Below, one piece after another: positions 1 to 35,282 of a stretch of 64,000 nt of DNA (its first letter is position 1; each line of letters starts with the position of its first letter). This DNA comes from Sporosarcina oncorhynchi (lineage in GTDB: Bacteria; Bacillota; Bacilli; Bacillales_A; Planococcaceae): positions 1,670,001 through 1,734,000 of the forward strand of contig NZ_CP129118.1 of NCBI RefSeq assembly GCF_033304615.1, in the 5' to 3' direction. The position numbers and the translations under genes were made by a program. Under the pieces are notes generated by a model. The model was not told where the DNA came from. It worked only from the letters and a program-made list of their open reading frames with translations, and searched no databases.

Positions 1-72
1 TCAATGGTGCAAGCGAAAATGCTGGCGAAACGGGCCGCCAAAGAAATACAATTTCATCTCAAAAAAGATTGA
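1..72 (+). CDS. C-terminal fragment of an unidentified protein
   Basis: Only the last 23 codons are present, ending in TGA at 70-72. They are lysine- and alanine-rich (AKMLAKRAAKEIQFH within it) and look like a charged helix. The gene begins outside the window, so the frame was chosen because it is open from base 1 and runs directly into a strong terminator. The family cannot be identified from this piece. Confidence 0.6.
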   Translation, partial: SMVQAKMLAKRAAKEIQFHLKKD

Positions 73-110
73 AAAAAGGGCACCTCATTGGAGGAGGAGC
101 CCTTTTTTTT
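72..110. terminator. bidirectional terminator
   Basis: A GGGC/GCCC-based hairpin with an inner CCTC/GAGG pairing is flanked by an A-run on one side and eight Ts on the other. It lies between the convergent upstream plus-strand gene and the minus-strand YheC/D-Mur gene, whose TAA stop sits in the T-run. Confidence 0.8.
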
Positions 111-2274
111 AGGAATATTTACCGTCCATGTATTTCACTGTTTCAAACATATTCGTCTTACTTGCTCCTTTCACAAGAATGGTATCCCCTTTTTGAATTA
201 CTGAATCCAAGAGTGTATGAAGTTTTTCCCGATCTGTAAAGTGAAAGATTTTACTGGCATCCATCCCTTTCAATTTTGCTTGGGCACCGATTTCCTCTGT
301 TCTAAAACCGTACGTAATGAGAACATCAATTTCTTGCTGATTGATATAGTCACCGACTTTTCGATATTCTTGCTCTCGCAAGTCTCCTAATTCACGCATT
401 TGGCCGATAATCGCGATCTTTCGTTTCTTGGCAATATTCTTCAGAACATCAATCGCTGCGCGAACTCCTTCAGGATGCGAGTGGACAGTATCGTCTATCA
501 ACTTGATATTGTTCTTTAAATCATAGATTGTTAATCTACGTGGCGGCTTTTTGAAGAGCAGACCTGACTTAATCTCCATTGGTGAAAAGCCAAGATTGTC
601 AGCGATTGCGATTGCAGACAAAGCGTTATACACATGATGCTCACCGAATATCGGGATGAAAAGTTCGATTTCCTCAGCTTGTAACTTCATTTTGAAACTC
701 ATACCGCTGTCTGTATAGTTCACATCATACGCTCGGTAGTCAGCAGGTCGTTTTATCCCGACTGTAAGGATTTCACCTTTGAACTTTTTTGTTTCAAGAT
801 ATCTAGAATGATCATTGTCCTTATTAATGCAAAGTACACCTTGCTGGTCCATTCCATGGATTAGTTCTGATTTAGCCTTAGCTACGCCTCTTGGATCTCC
901 ATTGAAATTTCCGACATGCGCGAGTCCGATATTCGTAACGATACTGATCGTCGGTTGGATGATTTTGCAATGTTCGGTGATGACTCCTGGATAGGCCATT
1001 CCATATTCCAGAACGACAGCGCGGTGAGAGTCATTGATTTCAGCGGCATGTTTCTTCGTATGTTCAGTCGTGTTCCAATAATCTTTGGATTCAAATACAT
1101 TCCATTTCTTCGCAAGAATAGATGCTAGAAATGCTTTCGTTGTTGTTTTACCTGCACTCCCTGTAATCCCGATGACCGGAATTTTCTCTTTGCCATTGGA
1201 ACGTTTCCGTTTCACTTCACGGATTTTGCTTTGTATTACCTTCTGATTGTCAGCTATATAGATTGCATACTGTATCGTGTTTGTGACGACATCCAATTCC
1301 AAATAGAATGTAGGGGGACAACCCGGCCGCCAGTTTACTTCATAAATCCATAATTTCTGTTGCTCATCCATGCCGATATCAACACCAATTTCGTCGATTA
1401 CTTCACCGAACTTTTCCATTTGAAGTTCATCCAAATGCTTCGCAAGCGACAAGGAGAAAAATTCTAGTTTCTTTCTAATATTGAATGCTTCTTCTTTAAA
1501 CTCCTGCTCCAGGAAAGGATCTAGATAGTTTGTATACCCCCCACTATTGATGTTTGCAATAATGGATCCTTCCGGAGCGATGCGAGGATAGATAGCGGTG
1601 ATAACCCAATCGCCCGTTCCGTTTTTTTGTACATGAAGTCTGAAATCGAAAACCTGACCATTTTTAGTCACAGATTGAATATACGGTTGTACGATAAATG
1701 ACTCTGCTTTCATTTTACGTCTTATAAATTCATCTAATTCTAATTTGGAGAATAGTTTATTTAAACCTTGACCGCTCACCTTGTAACCATTTCCTTCGGC
1801 GACAATAAAAAAGATTCCTTTACCCTTTCTGCCATCAACCGGTTTAAAGACAATTTTATTGAATGCAGTTATATAATGATGAAGTTGATCTGTAGTCTTA
1901 AGAATTTCTGCCGGAATTAAATAACTGGCAAATTCTTTTGCCTTTTTCAGTCGTCGGTTGACACTCCATTTATTGCCGATGGAATGGGTCGTAAATGGAA
2001 TTTCGCTTTTCAACTTTTGCATAACATTCTTTGATTTTGCAAGTTTTTCCGGACTGCCTGCATTATAAATCACATCGGGAAAAGGCATGACTTTCAACTT
2101 CCATTTCCCTTTCTCATATACTTGTCCCTTAATTGTACGGGTTGCAAAATTGACTTCTCCTGGGGAGAAATAATAGAAATCTGCACCTTCTGCAGCTGCA
2201 ACAGCCGCAAATGCATAGGCTTTAATTACAGTTTTAGGGTCTTTCCGATGATGTAACATACCGATAATCGTCAT
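109..2274 (-). CDS. YheC/D-type ATP-grasp fused to a MurF-like Mur ligase
   Basis: This 721-residue protein has two ATP-dependent ligase modules. Residues 1 to about 345 resemble the YheC/YheD spore coat-associated ATP-grasp family (FKPVDGRKGKG near 144, metal-site segment YEVNWRPGCPP near 311). Residues 365-721 are a Mur ligase with P-loop GITGSAGKTTTK at 369-380, TNIGLAHVGNF near 450 and the carbamylated-lysine-type segment AKAKSEL. The order ATP-grasp then Mur ligase is that of cyanophycin synthetase, although the ATP-grasp subfamily differs. Start is ATG with GGGAG seven bases upstream. It is last in a minus-strand cluster after an ATP-grasp and a CotY/Z-like gene. A role in making or attaching a peptide-like material on the spore surface is inferred; the substrate is unknown. 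Confidence 0.88.
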   Translation of the reverse strand: MTIIGMLHHRKDPKTVIKAYAFAAVAAAEGADFYYFSPGEVNFATRTIKGQVYEKGKWKLKVMPFPDVIYNAGSPEKLAKSKNVMQKLKSEIPFTTHSIGNKWSVNRRLKKAKEFASYLIPAEILKTTDQLHHYITAFNKIVFKPVDGRKGKGIFFIVAEGNGYKVSGQGLNKLFSKLELDEFIRRKMKAESFIVQPYIQSVTKNGQVFDFRLHVQKNGTGDWVITAIYPRIAPEGSIIANINSGGYTNYLDPFLEQEFKEEAFNIRKKLEFFSLSLAKHLDELQMEKFGEVIDEIGVDIGMDEQQKLWIYEVNWRPGCPPTFYLELDVVTNTIQYAIYIADNQKVIQSKIREVKRKRSNGKEKIPVIGITGSAGKTTTKAFLASILAKKWNVFESKDYWNTTEHTKKHAAEINDSHRAVVLEYGMAYPGVITEHCKIIQPTISIVTNIGLAHVGNFNGDPRGVAKAKSELIHGMDQQGVLCINKDNDHSRYLETKKFKGEILTVGIKRPADYRAYDVNYTDSGMSFKMKLQAEEIELFIPIFGEHHVYNALSAIAIADNLGFSPMEIKSGLLFKKPPRRLTIYDLKNNIKLIDDTVHSHPEGVRAAIDVLKNIAKKRKIAIIGQMRELGDLREQEYRKVGDYINQQEIDVLITYGFRTEEIGAQAKLKGMDASKIFHFTDREKLHTLLDSVIQKGDTILVKGASKTNMFETVKYMDGKYS

Positions 2275-2386
2275 TCACAAACTCCCTCTCTTCTTTTGAC
2301 AACTCTATCTAGTACATGCACACGACAGGGAGTGTGATAAAGACAGTCGCATAGAGAAAAAATATATAATTGTAAACTATCCTTTC

Positions 2387-2797
2387 TCAGACTTTCATTT
2401 CTATAGTAGGCAATGGTTTTGAAACGAGGTTTGCGGGCATCGGATTAATGGCGATAAAACAACAAAGTTTCAAATGAATACACCGATCTGTCTTTTCAAG
2501 TGAATACAGATCGTTTGCAGAAATTGAAGGACGACCCATCATATCTACAGCTTTTAGAAGTGTCAATTGAGCACAACAGCTATCGTTTTCAATGCTTTCC
2601 AATCGAAAGAATGGTGTAGTCGTGTTGTGAAGAATGGCGGTAAATGGTTCGAATCCTTCCGCCGTGATTAACATGAATGGAATGGTATCCAGCTGTTTAG
2701 ACCCAACAATATAACGACAATTCTTTCCAAATTCCGATAATAATTTCTGTTCATTTTGCAGCGCTCTCATCTCCTTGCAAATACAGCATGCATCCAA
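2387..2797 (-). CDS. CotY/CotZ/ExsY-like spore coat or exosporium protein
   Basis: About 136 residues with nine cysteines: a CCIC cluster near the N-terminus, CC at 76-77, and 108, 114 and 115 (numbered from the upstream ATG). The segments TPFFRLES and LEKTDRCIHLKLCCFIAI match the conserved C-terminal part of the CotY/CotZ/ExsY family, which builds disulfide-linked outer coat, crust or exosporium layers. An ATG at 2803 abuts the AGGAGGG Shine-Dalgarno with no spacer, so TTG at 2797, seven bases downstream of AGGAGG, is the likelier start. It begins about 30 bases after the L-amino-acid-ligase-like gene stops, suggesting co-transcription. It is shorter and more divergent than typical CotZ. Confidence 0.85.
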   Translation of the reverse strand: MDACCICKEMRALQNEQKLLSEFGKNCRYIVGSKQLDTIPFMLITAEGFEPFTAILHNTTTPFFRLESIENDSCCAQLTLLKAVDMMGRPSISANDLYSLEKTDRCIHLKLCCFIAINPMPANLVSKPLPTIEMKV

Positions 2798-2827
2798 TTC
2801 CATCCCTCCTCTTTTATGTATGATCAG

Positions 2828-4033
2828 TCATTCGATAGGTTCCAAATAGAACTTCAGTAAGCTTGCTGCATATTCTGCGTAATATTTAGCCTCTTCTTGC
2901 GTATCACTTTTCGCCATTACATAGCCATACCGGTAGCCCATCGACAATGCGGGTAGCATGAGTGAACCGATTTTTGGCGTAAGGTGGACATCAATGATTT
3001 CTGGAATTGTGTTTACCTCTTCAAGCCCATCAATTTTCAATAAATAGCCCATTCCGGCTATCGTAATATAAGAAGTATATATCGGTTGGTTCCGAATTCT
3101 GATTAGATCCGGTTCTAGACCAACATACATTTTAATCGTCTGTTCAACGATATTGATGCCGTAAGCCTCTTCCACCATCCGGTTCATAGCACCACCGGAC
3201 ATGCGTGGATTAATTTCAATCAGTTTCCAACCTTCATCTGTTTGTCGCACTTCCATATGGCAAGTTCCGTTTTCCAATCCGATATCAGACGTAATTTCCA
3301 TTATTGTTTTCCATAATGATTCATACAATTGTTGTTCCATCTTGACGCAAACTTCGTAACCTGTGACAATGAATGTGAAATCACGTGTAATTTCCTGCTT
3401 AATGATTGCAACAATAATAGGAATACCTTCAACTACAAATAGCTCAACATTATATTGAGTTCCTTCTATATACGGTTCAATCATCAATTCGTGAGTGGAC
3501 TTTCCAGTAGATAACTTCCGTATCGCGTCCTTCATTTCAATTTCGTTTTTAATGAAAAGAACATCTTTGGAACCGTTGGATACTACTCTTTTGACGATTT
3601 TTGGATAGATCCCATCAAATTCAGAGAAGGAAGAGTGAATAATTTCAAACTGGACGGATGCTTGATTCTTTCTCAATGCTTTTCGTGTCTCACTCTTGTT
3701 TTCGAGTAATCGCAACGCATTAATTGAAAGATTTGATCCGCATAATTCATTGGATACTAAAGCTGCGTCAGATACGTATGGATCAGTGAAGCTCAGGACG
3801 GCTTGTAACCGGTAGTTCTCCTGTTGAAGCCTAAAAACCACCTCGCGAATCGTTTCAACATCAATCTTCTTAACAAGCAGGATCCGTATATCGGCTGGGA
3901 AGTTCTCTCTTTCTGTTAAAAACCGCTTACGTTGAGTGAGAAGAATTGACGAATATCCTAAACGATTTGCCGCGAAGAAGGCTTCACTACTTGAGCCATT
4001 GCGTGCTGTTTCGACAAATAAAATGGCTTTCAT
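2828..4033 (-). CDS. ATP-grasp enzyme resembling L-amino acid ligases
   Basis: About 401 residues. The order is an N-terminal Rossmann-like pre-ATP-grasp domain, an ATP-grasp core with the metal-binding segment IEINPRMSGGA, and a C-terminal region (IDVHLTPKIGSLMLP, then GYRYGYVMAKSDTQEEA) like the C-terminal domain of L-amino acid ligases and carnosine-synthase relatives. Such enzymes form dipeptides via acyl phosphates. ATG at 4033 has AAGGTG 11 bases upstream; an in-frame ATG at 4054 is less well served. It is the first gene of the spore cluster, after the yneQ terminator, with a SigE-like -10 element upstream. Substrates are unknown, and a general carboxylate-amine ligase is the safe alternative. 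Confidence 0.85.
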   Translation of the reverse strand: MKAILFVETARNGSSSEAFFAANRLGYSSILLTQRKRFLTERENFPADIRILLVKKIDVETIREVVFRLQQENYRLQAVLSFTDPYVSDAALVSNELCGSNLSINALRLLENKSETRKALRKNQASVQFEIIHSSFSEFDGIYPKIVKRVVSNGSKDVLFIKNEIEMKDAIRKLSTGKSTHELMIEPYIEGTQYNVELFVVEGIPIIVAIIKQEITRDFTFIVTGYEVCVKMEQQLYESLWKTIMEITSDIGLENGTCHMEVRQTDEGWKLIEINPRMSGGAMNRMVEEAYGINIVEQTIKMYVGLEPDLIRIRNQPIYTSYITIAGMGYLLKIDGLEEVNTIPEIIDVHLTPKIGSLMLPALSMGYRYGYVMAKSDTQEEAKYYAEYAASLLKFYLEPIE

Positions 4034-4075
4034 CGAACAAGTCACACCTTTCATCTAGACAATTATCTCTTCCTA

Positions 4076-4083
4076 ATTGTATG
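4076..4083 (-). promoter_or_regulatory. possible SigE-type -10 element
   Basis: On the minus strand this reads CATACAAT, matching the SigE -10 consensus (CATACA-T) of mother-cell genes, about 43 bases upstream of the ATP-grasp start. The -35 region is not convincing, so this is tentative. It fits the neighbouring coat protein gene. Confidence 0.4.
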
Positions 4084-27855: not shown

Positions 27856-30126
27856 TCAGACTTCCTTCCTCAACCATTTAGCTGTAGAAGTATCGGCGGC
27901 CAACATCTGTTCAGGCGTCCCTTCGTAAATGATCTGTCCACCTTGCTTCCCTCCCCCAGGACCAAGCTCAATTACCCAGTCGCTTGCTGCTATGAAATCG
28001 AGGTTATGTTCAATAATAATAACGGAATTACCCCGATTGACGAGCCTCTGAAATAACTCCAGCAGTTTTGCATTATCTCTAAGATGAAGTCCTAAGGACG
28101 GTTCATCCAATAGGTAGATTTGGCCTTCATTTTGCAGATGGCTAGCAAGCTTCAACCGTTGGATTTCGCCACCGCTTAAGGAGCTTGTCGTCTGTCCTAA
28201 CGTCAGATAGTCTAATCCGACATCTAGCAGTGTGTTCAGTCGTTTGATGATTTTGGGCAATATAAAATAATCCATAGCTTCAACAATTGTTAACTCCAGA
28301 ACTTCCGCAATATTTTTTCCTTTGTACACAAAGGACAAGGCTTCGTCTGAATACCGCAGTCCTTGACAGGCTTCGCATGTTACTGTGACGGGATCTGCAA
28401 ATGCGACGTCAGGAGTTGTTACACCCTTTCCTTCACAGACAGGACATGCCCCAATCGAGTTGAAACTGAATAGACCTGCTGGCTGTCCTGTTTCTTTTGC
28501 AAATATTGTCCGCACATCATCCATGATTCCCATATAAGTAGCCATCGTGGAACGACTTGAAATGCCGATACGTCCTTGACTAACTTGAATAGTTTCAGGG
28601 TGGCGACTTGCGAATGCATCAAACATCAGGGAACTTTTACCGGAACCTGAAACGCCGCAAATTGAAACGAATACATGCTTAGGAATATGTATCGTTACAT
28701 CCTTCAAGTTATTGTCATCTGCTTTCGTAATAGTGAAATAGCTTTCGGATTGTCTCGTTGTTTTATTGATGCTCACTTTATGATTAAGCAATTGTGAAGT
28801 TGAGGTAGAAGAGTTTTCGAGCGCCCGAAGTACACCTTGATACACAACTTCCCCACCACTTACGCCTGCCCCTGGACCCATCTCAATAATTTCATCTGCC
28901 ACTCTAATTACAGAAGCATCATGTTCAATCACGATTACCGTGTTATGGTTGGCTTTAATTGTTTGGAGCATCTGGATTAACATATCCACCTCTTCGGGAT
29001 GAAGTCCCGCACTAGGTTCATCGAAGATATAGGTCATATTATTAAGACTGCTTCCTAGATGACGGGCAATTTTAACACGTTGCGCTTCGCCGCCAGACAA
29101 TGTGCCCATTTTTCGTGAAAGGCTCAAATAACCTAAACCTAATTCGATCAATTGCTTGATTGGCGGTATAGCTTGCTGAGCTATAGACGCTCCGATTGGA
29201 TCATCTACAACAGCCAGTTCCTTAAGTAAGTCCGTCAACTCCAATTGGTCGTATTCCGCTATATTGTAACCATTTATCTTAGACGCCAATACTTTCGGAT
29301 TGAGTCCTGAACCTAAACACATCGGGCATAAACTATGTGTTGATACTGCCAGTACATCTTCTTGGGATACCTGCTTCAACTTTGTAACATCTCTGTTTAT
29401 ATAAAGACGCGTAAACCTGGGCAATAAACCATCCCATTCATGATCTTGTGGTCCGTTTTTTGTATGGAAAGGAGCAAACACCCGCTCCCCTTCTCGTGGA
29501 CCATGGACGAATAGTCGAAAATCTTCTTCGGAATACTCTTTTAGCGGCTTATCAGGATCAAATAACCCGCCAGTTATCATCCATCTTCCTTGCCAACCCG
29601 AGGGGGATAGTGGTTTAAATTGTACGGCGTAATCCCGAAGTGATTTGTTGACATTGAGGATTTTATTGAGATCTGGTGAAACGACCTCACCGAATCCACT
29701 GCACTCGGGACATCTACCAAAAGAACTTTGGCTTGAAAAATCTGTGGCCGAACCTATCAAAGGATCACCGATTCTTGAAAATAGCAGTCGGATCAATGGA
29801 TGAATATCCATATAGGTGCCGACTGTTGAACGGGAATTCCCACTGATTGGTCTTTGTTCGACAACGACAACTGGACTTAAATTTCGCATGAAATCTGCAT
29901 GGGGCCGCTCGTACCTGGGCATTTGATAGCGAACGTAAAAAGGATAGTTCATCGTCATCTGTCTTCGGCTCTCAGTAGCTAATGTATCAAAAACGACAGA
30001 ACTTTTACCAGAGCCTGATAGGCCAGTAAAGACAATAATTTTTTCTTTAGGAATCGTTAGATCAATATTTTTTAAATTATTTTCTTTAAGCCCTTTTAAA
30101 ATAATAGCATCTTTACTATCTGACAC
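27856..30126 (-). CDS. UvrA paralogue (ABC ATPase, excinuclease-like)
   Basis: About 756 residues with two ABC ATPase modules (Walker A GLSGSGKSS and GVSGSGKSS; two LSGGE signatures) and CxxC zinc modules (CPECSGFG, CPMCLGSG, CPVCEGKG, CEACQG). It is about 190 residues shorter than UvrA, lacking space for the UvrB-binding insertion, so it belongs to the UvrA2-like/drug-resistance-associated group. GTG at 30126 has GGAGG eight bases upstream; the upstream ATG at 30201 falls in a terminator. Function (DNA damage or drug tolerance) is unproven. Confidence 0.88.
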   Translation of the reverse strand: MSDSKDAIILKGLKENNLKNIDLTIPKEKIIVFTGLSGSGKSSVVFDTLATESRRQMTMNYPFYVRYQMPRYERPHADFMRNLSPVVVVEQRPISGNSRSTVGTYMDIHPLIRLLFSRIGDPLIGSATDFSSQSSFGRCPECSGFGEVVSPDLNKILNVNKSLRDYAVQFKPLSPSGWQGRWMITGGLFDPDKPLKEYSEEDFRLFVHGPREGERVFAPFHTKNGPQDHEWDGLLPRFTRLYINRDVTKLKQVSQEDVLAVSTHSLCPMCLGSGLNPKVLASKINGYNIAEYDQLELTDLLKELAVVDDPIGASIAQQAIPPIKQLIELGLGYLSLSRKMGTLSGGEAQRVKIARHLGSSLNNMTYIFDEPSAGLHPEEVDMLIQMLQTIKANHNTVIVIEHDASVIRVADEIIEMGPGAGVSGGEVVYQGVLRALENSSTSTSQLLNHKVSINKTTRQSESYFTITKADDNNLKDVTIHIPKHVFVSICGVSGSGKSSLMFDAFASRHPETIQVSQGRIGISSRSTMATYMGIMDDVRTIFAKETGQPAGLFSFNSIGACPVCEGKGVTTPDVAFADPVTVTCEACQGLRYSDEALSFVYKGKNIAEVLELTIVEAMDYFILPKIIKRLNTLLDVGLDYLTLGQTTSSLSGGEIQRLKLASHLQNEGQIYLLDEPSLGLHLRDNAKLLELFQRLVNRGNSVIIIEHNLDFIAASDWVIELGPGGGKQGGQIIYEGTPEQMLAADTSTAKWLRKEV

Positions 30127-30192
30127 AGTATCACCCTCCCAGTTACTAAAGAGTTTCCCTGTTTTCGCATATTTACTCCCATTGGAGAGGCT

Positions 30193-30234
30193 AAAAAGCA
30201 TTTACCAGTTGGCCATATGCCAAAGGTAAATGCT
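30193..30234 (-). terminator. terminator of the phosphoesterase gene
   Basis: AGCATTTACC/GGTAAATGCT arms with inner TTGGC/GCCAA pairing, followed on the minus strand by TTTTTAG. Confidence 0.85.
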
Positions 30235-31682: not shown

Positions 31683-34600
31683 TCAGTCAGACTCCTTCAG
31701 TCGTATTTTTTCATAGGTTGTACGCCATTCTTCCAATTGTTCGCTGTCAGACAACAAGGCTCGTTCTGATTCAATCTGTTGGACACTTTGATTCAACAGA
31801 TGCTTCCGAAGACCTTCAGATTCCCCTTCAATCCATTGTTCCGCCCATTGTTCAATTCGTTCTTTTTCATTACCTAAATAGAGGGATGAGTCTTGCTTCA
31901 AACGTTCCTCCAATTGCTCCCGTAAGATGAGTCTTTCACCCTTTTCAAAGAATGCCTTCTGGTTTTTAAATAGCCGGTTGACGCCGCTGTAGACGGAAGG
32001 TTTTTCGAAAGGTGATTTGAATGAAAGCATGTCAGCATCATCCGGCTCATAAGGAGATGGAGAAATTGACTGGTCGATGTCAGTTAACCGGCGCATTTCA
32101 GTGCGTTGACGCTCTTTCAGCTGTTTGTTCATGAAATTCAACATGCGCAAGTTTGTCACTTTCAATTCCTGGGTCAAGTCAAACCCGACCATCTGCACAG
32201 TCTCGTTCAAAGCCATAGTCAGCGCTTTCTCGGTCGAATGGTTCGCAAATGTTGACGGGCTGTAGCCTTCTTTGAAGAAATCTCCAAAGCGCAGGAATAC
32301 CCGTTGTAAAATATAATACACCAATTCGTTCAATTCATTAATGGAAGCTTTGCGGATCACTTCTGCAAAGCTATGCATATAGTGAGTTCTGATTTCTTGC
32401 TCCAACCGATTGAGTTCAGCTAGCCGTTCCGCTTTACGAGTCCGGTTTGATTCTGTCCGCTCAATCAATGTAGCCAGACGGTGAATGGTCTTTTCCACCT
32501 CTTCTTCTAGCGCTTGGATAGCCAGACCTTTCAGATCATCTTTTAAGAAATGTTCAAAATGGCTCTCAAACACTTGCATGAAAGGATCTTCATTGCCAGC
32601 AAGTTTTGCGTCCAATGCCTGAAGACTTGAGATTCCGTGAACTCGTGGATGACGGATTCCGAATGCAGTTAGCTCCTGTTCAACAAAAGATTTTACCGCT
32701 TCCGCTTCCTCTTCGTTTGAAGCGAGATCAATTGCATTCACGATGAAGAACATCTTATCTAATTCAAAAGCATCTTTCACCCGCCCAAGCTGGATAAGGA
32801 ATTCTCTGTCTGCCCTAGCAAAAGCGTGATTATAATAAGTAATGAACAAGATTGCGTCCGCATTACGGATATATTCAAAAGCTACGTCCGTATGACGTGC
32901 ATTGATTGAGTCGGCGCCCGGAGTGTCTACTAATGTAATCCCTTGACGAGTTAATGCACAATCAATGAACAAATCAATTGAATCGACGAAACAGCTACGG
33001 TCTTCTTCTGCAACAAAACGAGTGAATTCAACTTGATTTACATTCATCGACTGTCCAAGACTTCCGTGATAGATAGGATATCCTTTTTGGAAAGCACGTA
33101 TAAACGTCTTATGGATATGCAAGCTTTCGTCATCGAGTTCTTTTGTAAGCACTTCATCCGAACGGTCAAATGCTTCTTTTAACGATGTAAGTGGTATGCC
33201 TAAAGCTTCAAACGAAAACGCTACATCCTCAAGCATCTGCTGTTCTGATTTTAAATGAACATCTGCTGTGCGATCTTCTTTACCGTCCATGACGGGGCGA
33301 ATCCGGTTGATAGCTGCAGTCGTTGGATTCGGAGACACCGGCAATACGCGGTCACCGATAAGTGCATTTGAAAACGAAGATTTCCCAGCACTGAAAGCTC
33401 CGAATAACGCAACGGTGAATTCCTGCTCGGCCAGCCGTTCTGATTTATTTTTAAGATAGTGCGCTGTTTCAAGGAATCCTGGAATGTCCATAACAGCATC
33501 AGCAATTCGTTGCGCTTGTTCAATTACAATTCCGGCATCCGTATAAGAAGATGTCATGTATGCAATCTGGTCTTCTGTTTGTTGATTGGCTACACTTTGA
33601 CTCACTTCGTTTGTCTCAAGTGAATTTAAGTCGACTATTTCAATTTCTGGTTTTTTTGTCCATTTATCCAATAACAACTCACTTTTTTTAAGAAGGTCAA
33701 CAGATGGGTTCGAGCAGCTATTTATGTATGTGGTCAATTGCATATTGATTTTTTCGACATGCGCAATAGCATTTAGTTTCGTTTCAAGTGTCTGTACAGT
33801 GTGTAGCAAATGTTCAATATGCTCGTTTCCTGCATCTGCAGCAATCTCAGACATTTTCATTTTCCATGCATCTGTTCGTTTTTTAAGAATCTGTTGGATC
33901 CCCGTTTTCATCTGCTCAGCCATGTTGAGTACAGTGTCACCCGTCATAACATCAGATACTGGGAGATGCTGGTCAATTTCATCGAACGGGATACTCATAT
34001 CCATTTCATCGATTTCAATGGAGCGTTCATCTGTCATTAAACCCGCTCGTTTCAATGTGTTCTTCATCAACGCTTTCAAATGAACTTCTATTTGCGTATG
34101 AACCAGATCCGAAAGGTTGCGGTCAAATTCGGATCTTCTTCTATCCCGTTCCTCTGCTGTTTTCTTCGCACCGAACAACAACCCTACTTTGAACCGAGGT
34201 GATTTAGATTCGATATACGCTTTCATCAATTCGCGTGTTTCGAATGGGCTGATGGAGGCATTTCTGAGTAGTTCATTGCGCTCACTTTCAAAAGAAGCAT
34301 AAAACTCGTTACTGCCTAAGAGAGATGCGCGCGTTTTCAACTCCTTGACGTCAGCAGCGATTTCTTTGTAGAGGTGCCACTCATCTTCCGCAACAATTTC
34401 TGCATAGACAGATTTTCGTTCTTCAAGTTCGTCTTGCAGGAATGCAAGATGTTCTTCTTGTAACTTGAGCAGTGATTGGTCTGCATTGTCTAGAAAATGC
34501 GCTTCCCAATTGGAGATGGAGCCATCAACTATGGACTTCACTTTTTTGAAATCATTATGTGGGTGCTCCTGGTCACGAAGAGATGTATAAAAAATAGCCT

Positions 34601-35282
34601 TCGGTTCAACGCCCCATAATCGGAAAGAATCTTCAACAGACTTTTTAAAATCAGAAAAACTTAATTCACTGTCACGGTGTTTATCAATCTGGTTGATAAT
34701 CAAATAGACATTCGGATTATACCGAAGTAATTCTTTCGTGAATTTGAAGTTTAGTTCAGATTGGACATGATTGTAATCCATCGTGTAAAACACAAGATCC
34801 GCAAGATGAAGCGCTGATTCTGTAGACATCCTATGTGCATCATCAGTAGAATCTACACCTGGCGTGTCCATCACAGTGATTGCTTCAGGCAAAGCAGAAT
34901 TTGGATGACCAATTTCAATTAATGCAATTTCTGCTCCATCTTTACTAAATGCCTTAATAGCATCGGGGAAACCATGCCCATCCAATTTCACTGTTGCGCC
35001 ATCTGTTTTGTGGATAATGACATATTCTTGTTCAGTCTTTTTCACTTTAACAATATTTGCACTCGTAGGAATGGGGCTGGAAGGTAAAAGATCCTCTCCA
35101 GTCAATGCGTTAATCATGGAGGATTTGCCGGCCGAAAAGTGGCCCGCAAAACCGATAACGAATTCTTCGTCAATCAATTTCTCCGCTAGTGAAGCAGCTT
35201 TTTTAAATCGTTCCTCGTCATGGCTCTCTATGAAAAGCTCGCCATGAATCGATGTTCTTTTCAGTATGTCAGTAGTATGCAT
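31683..35282 (-). CDS. dynA: double-dynamin membrane-fusion/repair GTPase DynA
   Basis: 1199 residues made of two fused dynamin modules. Module 1 has P-loop GHFSAGKSS near 46 and DTPGVDS; module 2 has P-loop GAFSAGKSS near 640, DTPGADS and NAID. Length equals that of B. subtilis DynA/YpbR (1193), which tethers and fuses membranes and protects cells from pore-forming stress and phages. ATG at 35282 with AAGGG upstream. The sulfurtransferase gene follows after one base. Confidence 0.95.
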   Translation of the reverse strand: MHTTDILKRTSIHGELFIESHDEERFKKAASLAEKLIDEEFVIGFAGHFSAGKSSMINALTGEDLLPSSPIPTSANIVKVKKTEQEYVIIHKTDGATVKLDGHGFPDAIKAFSKDGAEIALIEIGHPNSALPEAITVMDTPGVDSTDDAHRMSTESALHLADLVFYTMDYNHVQSELNFKFTKELLRYNPNVYLIINQIDKHRDSELSFSDFKKSVEDSFRLWGVEPKAIFYTSLRDQEHPHNDFKKVKSIVDGSISNWEAHFLDNADQSLLKLQEEHLAFLQDELEERKSVYAEIVAEDEWHLYKEIAADVKELKTRASLLGSNEFYASFESERNELLRNASISPFETRELMKAYIESKSPRFKVGLLFGAKKTAEERDRRRSEFDRNLSDLVHTQIEVHLKALMKNTLKRAGLMTDERSIEIDEMDMSIPFDEIDQHLPVSDVMTGDTVLNMAEQMKTGIQQILKKRTDAWKMKMSEIAADAGNEHIEHLLHTVQTLETKLNAIAHVEKINMQLTTYINSCSNPSVDLLKKSELLLDKWTKKPEIEIVDLNSLETNEVSQSVANQQTEDQIAYMTSSYTDAGIVIEQAQRIADAVMDIPGFLETAHYLKNKSERLAEQEFTVALFGAFSAGKSSFSNALIGDRVLPVSPNPTTAAINRIRPVMDGKEDRTADVHLKSEQQMLEDVAFSFEALGIPLTSLKEAFDRSDEVLTKELDDESLHIHKTFIRAFQKGYPIYHGSLGQSMNVNQVEFTRFVAEEDRSCFVDSIDLFIDCALTRQGITLVDTPGADSINARHTDVAFEYIRNADAILFITYYNHAFARADREFLIQLGRVKDAFELDKMFFIVNAIDLASNEEEAEAVKSFVEQELTAFGIRHPRVHGISSLQALDAKLAGNEDPFMQVFESHFEHFLKDDLKGLAIQALEEEVEKTIHRLATLIERTESNRTRKAERLAELNRLEQEIRTHYMHSFAEVIRKASINELNELVYYILQRVFLRFGDFFKEGYSPSTFANHSTEKALTMALNETVQMVGFDLTQELKVTNLRMLNFMNKQLKERQRTEMRRLTDIDQSISPSPYEPDDADMLSFKSPFEKPSVYSGVNRLFKNQKAFFEKGERLILREQLEERLKQDSSLYLGNEKERIEQWAEQWIEGESEGLRKHLLNQSVQQIESERALLSDSEQLEEWRTTYEKIRLKESD

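Follow-up and report, generated by a model that had tools for sequence, protein, structure and literature searches.

A candidate spore-linked island of amide ligases around a CotZ-like gene in Sporosarcina oncorhynchi and its relatives

What might a spore former make with amide ligases encoded on either side of a gene for a spore coat-like protein? The question is raised by the left edge of a 64,000-nt stretch of the Sporosarcina oncorhynchi genome (C1:1670001-1734000, with C1 standing for contig NZ_CP129118.1; called the window here), where three co-directional minus-strand open reading frames (ORFs) span 109–4054 and are read from 4054 to 109:

2828–4054, minus strand: LAL1, 408 amino acids (aa), an L-amino-acid-ligase (LAL)-type ATP-grasp (ATP-grasp_4 and LAL_C2 domains), first gene of the run
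2387–2803, minus strand: CotZ-like protein, 138 aa, nine cysteines, with a PF10612 match
109–2274, minus strand: fusion of a YheC/D ATP-grasp and a MurF-like ligase, 721 aa, without the domain that binds UDP-N-acetylmuramate (UDP-MurNAc)

An earlier note on this DNA had assigned this trio the same span, a shared direction and the same families, which agree with the ORF calls and with Pfam matches above cut-offs. It had also described a cluster of three genes with two ligases; the three genes are present, but they belong to a unit of at least eight genes with seven ligase domains. Its overall interpretation, that a short peptide or amide polymer is made and attached to the spore surface, is partly supported. 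The explanation preferred here, to which a somewhat better than even chance is given, is that the trio forms the edge of an amide-ligase island specific to sporulation, and that the island makes an amide product in the mother cell, without UDP-MurNAc, for the outer spore layers.

Layout and conservation of the island

The leftward part of the island lies outside the window, the whole measuring ~11 kb in the source genome. From right to left this locus (L025) encodes LAL1 (−), the CotZ-like protein (−), the fusion (−), LAL2 (+), MurA (−, 468 aa), Cys145 (−, 145 aa), Yhe2 (−, 432 aa), MurB (−, 462 aa) and an NlpC/P60 protein (+, 461 aa, with three NlpC/P60 stretches by Pfam), followed by plsY (+) and then a gyrase/topoisomerase pair. 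MurA and MurB are labels used here, and do not denote the peptidoglycan enzymes of those names; together with LAL1, LAL2, the fusion and Yhe2 they supply the seven ligase domains. MurA, Cys145, Yhe2, MurB, NlpC and most of LAL2 are left of the window, which begins with:

1–72, plus strand: 3′ end of LAL2, the island's second LAL-type ATP-grasp, with the remainder at C1:1668852-1670000
72–110, no strand: terminator-like inverted repeat with flanking A and T runs, identified by eye between the convergent LAL2 and fusion genes

LAL1 has an alternative start, a second ATG ~20 nt inside the ORF.

In a survey of 61 genomes, 37 of them from the same genus (source included), CotZ-like (E ≤ 1e-10) and LAL (E ≤ 1e-70) genes were found in the identical 18 of 37 same-genus genomes and were adjacent in all 18; the remaining 19 have neither at the same thresholds. 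The proposal that the trio is conserved together thus holds in 18/18 same-genus genomes having either gene. Twelve of them carry the fusion, with order and strands identical in 12/12, and 11 of these loci also have Cys145 and Yhe2 (the exception is L031). Minor variants include one additional NlpC gene in L027, two additional ORFs in L033, and disruption by frameshifts in L035, whose genome is listed as 83% complete and 9% contaminated. Six same-genus genomes have a short form consisting of LAL, a stand-alone YheC/D gene (~340 aa) and the CotZ-like gene. A chance grouping of the trio was rejected on its co-occurrence and adjacency (18/18) and its conserved layout (12/12).

A wider search of genome contigs with the LAL alignment found 264 relatives, of which 80 loci were kept, several overlapping the genus set. 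They come from genera including Sporosarcina, Lysinibacillus, Neobacillus, Psychrobacillus, Lederbergia, Heyndrickxia, Domibacillus, Jeotgalibacillus, Solibacillus, Peribacillus, Halalkalibacter, Paenibacillus and Paenactinomyces. The fusion, MurA and NlpC were each found in 66 loci, MurB in 60, the CotZ-like gene in 58, Yhe2 in 41, LAL1 in 35 and Cys145 in 30, all of these being lower bounds because some loci end at contig ends. A Mur or YheC/D gene is near LAL in 78 of the 80 (exceptions L121 and L122). The order MurA, LAL2 (opposite strand), fusion is kept in 61 of the 62 loci having all three, across many genera. Island-flanking genes vary between genera, and a search for a common precursor gene by clustering the neighbouring ORFs returned only genus-specific flanking genes. 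At class level the fusion (E ≤ 1e-150) was found in 9/250 genomes, in one of them split into two ORFs.

Mur-like ligases without a UDP-muramoyl domain

The fusion has three domains above Pfam cut-offs:

1258–2001, minus strand: YheC/D ATP-grasp domain, residues 92–339 (PF14398, ATPgrasp_YheCD, 210.4 bits)
601–1167, minus strand: Mur ligase middle domain, residues 370–558 (PF08245, Mur_ligase_M, 115.7 bits)
163–540, minus strand: Mur ligase C-terminal domain, residues 579–704 (PF02875, Mur_ligase_C, 68.3 bits)

MurB matches both Mur domains and MurA the middle one alone (E ≤ 0.1). PF01225, the UDP-MurNAc-binding N-terminal domain, had no match in the fusion (E ≤ 1) or in MurA or MurB (E ≤ 0.1), whereas the genome's own MurF, as a positive control, matches it at 39.4 bits. 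In alignments to that MurF the N-domain is absent from the fusion and its stand-alone relatives; in MurA and MurB the Mur core is retained, whereas the N-domain's DSR stretch is lost. The MurF model TIGR01143 (cut-off 288.6 bits) is passed by the genome's own MurF at 417.5 but not by the fusion (266.0), MurB (261.7) or MurA (233.3). At the level of sequence, the UDP-muramoyl-binding domain is absent from the fusion and unrecognisable in MurA and MurB.

The expected active sites are retained. Invariant positions in 28 fusions, whose mean column identity is 71%, are G372, K376 and T377 of the P-loop, E423, H453, K468, D594 and D595 in the Mur part, and K144, R212, E312 and N314 in the ATP-grasp; their catalytic roles we take from what is known of the families. 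The description of the ATP-grasp and Mur proteins as amide ligases, which the earlier note had given, is accordingly a plausible prediction.

A tree of 44 author-picked Mur domains, with only four true MurFs, one of them a long branch, sets those four apart from the island domains (100/97). Fusion, split and stand-alone forms share one branch (100/99), in which the fusions alone are one group (100/99), and MurA, MurB and the phosphonate-linked forms considered below make up a third (100/99). The nearest relatives of the fusion's Mur part are stand-alone MurF-like ligases without the N-domain (L044, L046, L048); a PGA_cap (CapA-like) gene lies beside the stand-alone relatives in three of five loci examined. 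Lederbergia, Peribacillus and Calidifontibacillus loci have the Mur part as a separate gene, adjacent to a YheC/D gene.

In an AlphaFold model of the fusion (mean predicted local distance difference test score, pLDDT, 83.5), the Mur part aligns with MurF 4qf5 over 347 residues (Z 42.9, root-mean-square deviation, rmsd, 1.9). Across both domains, cyanophycin synthetase 7wae matches the most residues (517, Z 31.9); the rmsd is 24.2 Å, so the likeness is one of domain order, not of domain placement.

LAL-type and YheC/D ATP-grasps

LAL1 and LAL2, which are 36% identical, match ATP-grasp_4 (65.5 and 64.7 bits) and LAL_C2 (63.2 and 72.9 bits) above the curated Pfam cut-offs, and by these domains are predicted ligases of the L-amino-acid-ligase family. 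The closest solved structure to LAL1 is 3vot, the L-amino acid ligase BL00235 (E 2.8e-17); its LAL_C2 ATP-grasp structure matches include 4wd3, and it scores 39.8 bits against the dapdiamide synthase DdaF model, far below the cut-off of 840. Yhe2 matches PF14398 at 161.9 bits (cut-off 26.8), and tubulin-tyrosine-ligase (TTL)-like proteins are among the YheC/D matches. Two Bacillaceae islands have additional genes hinting at sugar acids as acceptors: one encodes a YheC/D ATP-grasp joined in a single chain with a UDP-sugar dehydrogenase (L093:1893-3983), and the other has genes for a glycosyltransferase and a polysaccharide pyruvyl transferase inside the island run (L125:9271-11353).

CotZ-like protein and Cys145

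The CotZ-like protein scores 37.2 bits against Spore-coat_CotZ (PF10612, cut-off 24), a family matched by 28 of 32 aligned members (E ≤ 0.01), and 19.3 bits against the NCBIfam CotZ_rel model, below its cut-off of 90. The nine cysteines pointed out earlier are present in the window's protein but are not typical: relatives have from 0 to 14, and 33 of 59 have three or fewer, so that the family is not generally cysteine-rich. Cys145 has 6 to 10 cysteines across 31 members and matches no Pfam family at E ≤ 0.1. Its model is all-beta (mean pLDDT 89.1) with no Foldseek match at E ≤ 0.001; the best re-aligned structure, NspA 1p4t (Z 8.3, rmsd 4.1, 129 residues), may reflect only a common arrangement. 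Endospore-appendage proteins, considered as a possible kin of Cys145, do not figure among the structure matches listed, which does not count against such a relation. Of the 51 loci that have the fusion together with MurA and MurB, 25 have both Yhe2 and Cys145, two (L076, L105) Yhe2 only, none Cys145 only and 24 neither; the two are a sub-module that comes and goes together.

Link to sporulation

A sample of 200 genomes of the family was searched for LAL (E ≤ 1e-60), with SpoIVA as the spore-former marker. LAL was found in 85/151 SpoIVA-positive and 0/49 SpoIVA-negative genomes or, counted by genus, in 10/13 and 0/6. A vegetative metabolic role for LAL was rejected on its absence from all 49 SpoIVA-negative genomes.

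Promoter-like sequences suggest mother-cell timing for the island. The motif CATANNNTA, which we take to be the core of sigma-K-type -10 boxes, was counted at 81 loci, within 250 nt 5′ of ORFs that were called mechanically. Consensus logos for -10 boxes are described in a section of PMC517825. The motif precedes LAL1 in 21/36 cases, MurA in 36/68, LAL2 in 32/84, MurB in 26/61 and the CotZ-like gene in 25/60, as compared with 56/574 other ORFs (one-sided Fisher 2e-9 to 5e-16 for the five genes, with related genomes counted repeatedly); shuffled means were 4.5, 9.4, 12.8, 9.0 and 7.5, respectively. Many matches are ~30–45 nt 5′ of the start codon. Enrichment is weak before Yhe2 (15/71) and was not seen upstream of the operon-internal fusion (7/67) and Cys145 (1/32). 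One such feature lies in the window:

4075–4083, minus strand: CATACAATT box, 29 nt 5′ of the LAL1 ATG, resembling the -10 box of a mother-cell sigma factor but outside the stricter CATANNNTA pattern

An aminoethylphosphonate clue

One relative offers a hint about substrates. In locus L037 (genome G003) a LAL, YheC/D and CotZ-like set is followed by a complete 2-aminoethylphosphonate operon (L037:9686-12879), whose phosphoenolpyruvate (PEP) mutase, phosphonopyruvate decarboxylase and transaminase all score above their NCBIfam cut-offs. After the operon come three additional YheC/D genes, a gene for a MurB-like ligase and one resembling succinate-semialdehyde dehydrogenase. PEP mutase (E ≤ 1e-60) was found in 14 of the 200 family genomes, 13 of which have LAL. 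Nine of the 14 operons adjoin a YheC/D gene (~257 aa) or a MurA-like gene (395–534 bits to the MurA profile), with at most one small ORF between (L139–L146, L151); among 20 author-chosen control windows of the same size, from five of the genomes, a single one has a match of this kind, which the tree places with the true MurFs (Fisher 3e-4). CATA-type boxes are found shortly before the PEP mutase ORF in five of the nine (L141, L142, L144, L145, L146). The five operons without such a ligase have long PEP mutase frames (437–535 aa), as does L151, one of the nine and from a genome without LAL.

In none of the 14 is the operon beside LAL; G003 alone has it within a LAL cluster. Of the 13 genomes with both, five have them on the same contig >200 kb apart and eight on different contigs (one at a contig edge). 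No PEP mutase was found in the source genome at E ≤ 1e-60, and on this ground aminoethylphosphonate was rejected as a substrate in this organism. Given both results it would be at most one of several building blocks. An unlikely but specific version of the idea would be a modular spore-surface polyamide whose amine block is swapped between species: 2-aminoethylphosphonate in some relatives, made by a sporulation-time PEP mutase operon next to YheC/D or MurA-like ligases and amide-linked into the outer spore, which would then bear phosphonate, and another amine here.

What the island might make

That any amide would be built without UDP-muramate is well supported by the sequences; the reactions and substrates themselves we infer. 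In the mother cell, LAL-type ATP-grasps would link carboxylates with amino acids or amines; these products would be extended or capped by the MurF-like and YheC/D ligases, with no UDP-MurNAc carrier. The fusion would work like cyanophycin synthetase, with two ATP-dependent amide-forming domains per chain. The result, a polymer or a decoration, could be a short peptide, a polyamide or an amide-linked modification of coat proteins; it would enter the outer spore layers along with the CotZ-like protein and Cys145, and the NlpC/P60 protein would trim amide bonds. The spore surface is suggested as the site by the coat-like partners and the promoter boxes.

Several observations weigh against this proposal. 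The spore association claimed earlier is favoured by the restriction of LAL to SpoIVA-positive genomes and by the -10 box enrichment, but in the source genome the strict CATANNNTA precedes only LAL2; LAL1 has CATACAATT, and MurA and MurB have none. The full sigma-K pattern including the -35 is found before 31% of LAL1, 25% of MurB, 3% of MurA and 2% of control genes, with LAL1 and MurB the only genes before which it is frequent. The motif is not enriched before NlpC (4/75), which may be a mere neighbour rather than an island member. The ATP-grasp half of the fusion model has weak stretches (pLDDT <50). The island is patchy (18/37 same-genus, 85/151 SpoIVA-positive family and 9/250 class genomes) and hence not needed for sporulation, and the survey counts are not phylogenetically independent, related genomes being counted repeatedly.

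Other explanations account for parts of the pattern. The ligases could tag coat proteins directly, attaching an amino acid or amine to CotZ-like and Cys145 side chains as an isopeptide, with no free polymer. One structural gene adjoins each ligase block, Yhe2 and Cys145 are gained and lost together (25/2/0/24 of 51 loci), and the TTL family, whose members are among the YheC/D matches, tags proteins; however, the CotZ-like gene is present without LAL1 in 23/46 loci and Mur ligases are known for small-molecule acceptors, so that direct tagging is considered rather unlikely. A small diffusible peptide that is merely sporulation-timed, such as a dipeptide antibiotic or germination signal, would suit the LAL_C2 ATP-grasps, which include dipeptide ligases (3vot, 4wd3; DdaF 39.8 bits against 840). 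It is improbable in view of the frequent coat-like partners (CotZ-like in 58/80 loci, Cys145 in 30/80) and of the neighbouring-ORF clustering, in which no recurrent transporter, resistance or self-protection gene appeared.

Very improbable is a role for the Mur ligases as sporulation MurF paralogues for cortex peptidoglycan, despite their MurF-type catalytic domains and the NlpC/P60 protein in 66/80 loci. The fusion, MurA and MurB have no PF01225 match, unlike the genome's own MurF, all fall below the MurF model cut-off and stand apart from true MurFs in the tree, and the island is patchy among spore formers. As a candidate, a sporulation MurF for the cortex was rejected on the tree, PF01225 and MurF-model results.

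Protein and glycan are the main materials known from the outer spore layers of Bacillaceae and Planococcaceae. If an amide product of the island does enter them, a non-ribosomal amide would be a third class of outer-spore material, and YheC/YheD-type proteins, long known in sporulation regulons, would gain a testable biochemical setting. Should aminoethylphosphonate be among its building blocks, phosphonates would occur in a setting, the spore, that is new for them.

Elsewhere in the window, 31683–35282 encodes a 1199-aa protein with two dynamin-type GTPase stretches within one chain, and 27856–30201 a 781-aa ABC-type ATPase, perhaps a UvrA-like paralogue, with a DnaJ-like CXXCXGXG stretch below cut-off.

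Comparison with known systems

No description of the island was found in the open-licence PubMed Central (PMC) literature, judged by titles and the starts of abstracts; the enzyme families are known, and it is their combination that was not found described there. With MurF, the UDP-MurNAc-tripeptide D-Ala-D-Ala ligase, the island enzymes share the middle and C-terminal domains, catalytic residues and fold, but their UDP-muramoyl-binding domain is absent or unrecognised and they form a separate clade. L-amino acid ligases such as BL00235 have the same ATP-grasp_4 and LAL_C2 domains (3vot match), there as a single dipeptide-making gene and here as two diverged copies in a spore-linked island. 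The CotZ-like protein resembles the outer coat proteins CotY, CotZ and ExsY in matching PF10612 above cut-off, but is shorter, below the CotZ_rel cut-off and often poor in cysteine. The poly-gamma-glutamate capsule system CapB/CapA is echoed by the PGA_cap genes that adjoin stand-alone relatives of the Mur part in 3/5 loci; in contrast, none was found among the island genes scanned with Pfam.

We know of no function for YheC/D; Iyer et al. in 2009 are said to have predicted that the YheC/D-type family modifies spore-wall or capsular proteins, so that a spore-wall role is not a new suggestion. The YheC and YheD of Bacillus subtilis belong to the same ATP-grasp family (PF14398), which here occurs either in fusion or in a group with Mur and LAL ligases. 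A section of PMC517825 assigns yheC and yheD to sigma-E and reports their stimulation by SpoIIID.

Cyanophycin synthetase CphA1 has the same arrangement as the fusion, an ATP-grasp and then a Mur ligase in one chain, both amide-forming, as in the match to 7wae. It differs in that the fusion scores only 55.0 bits against TIGR02068 (cut-off 850), its Mur part is nearest MurF and its ATP-grasp is of the YheC/D kind, with coat-like proteins and five further ligase genes encoded nearby.

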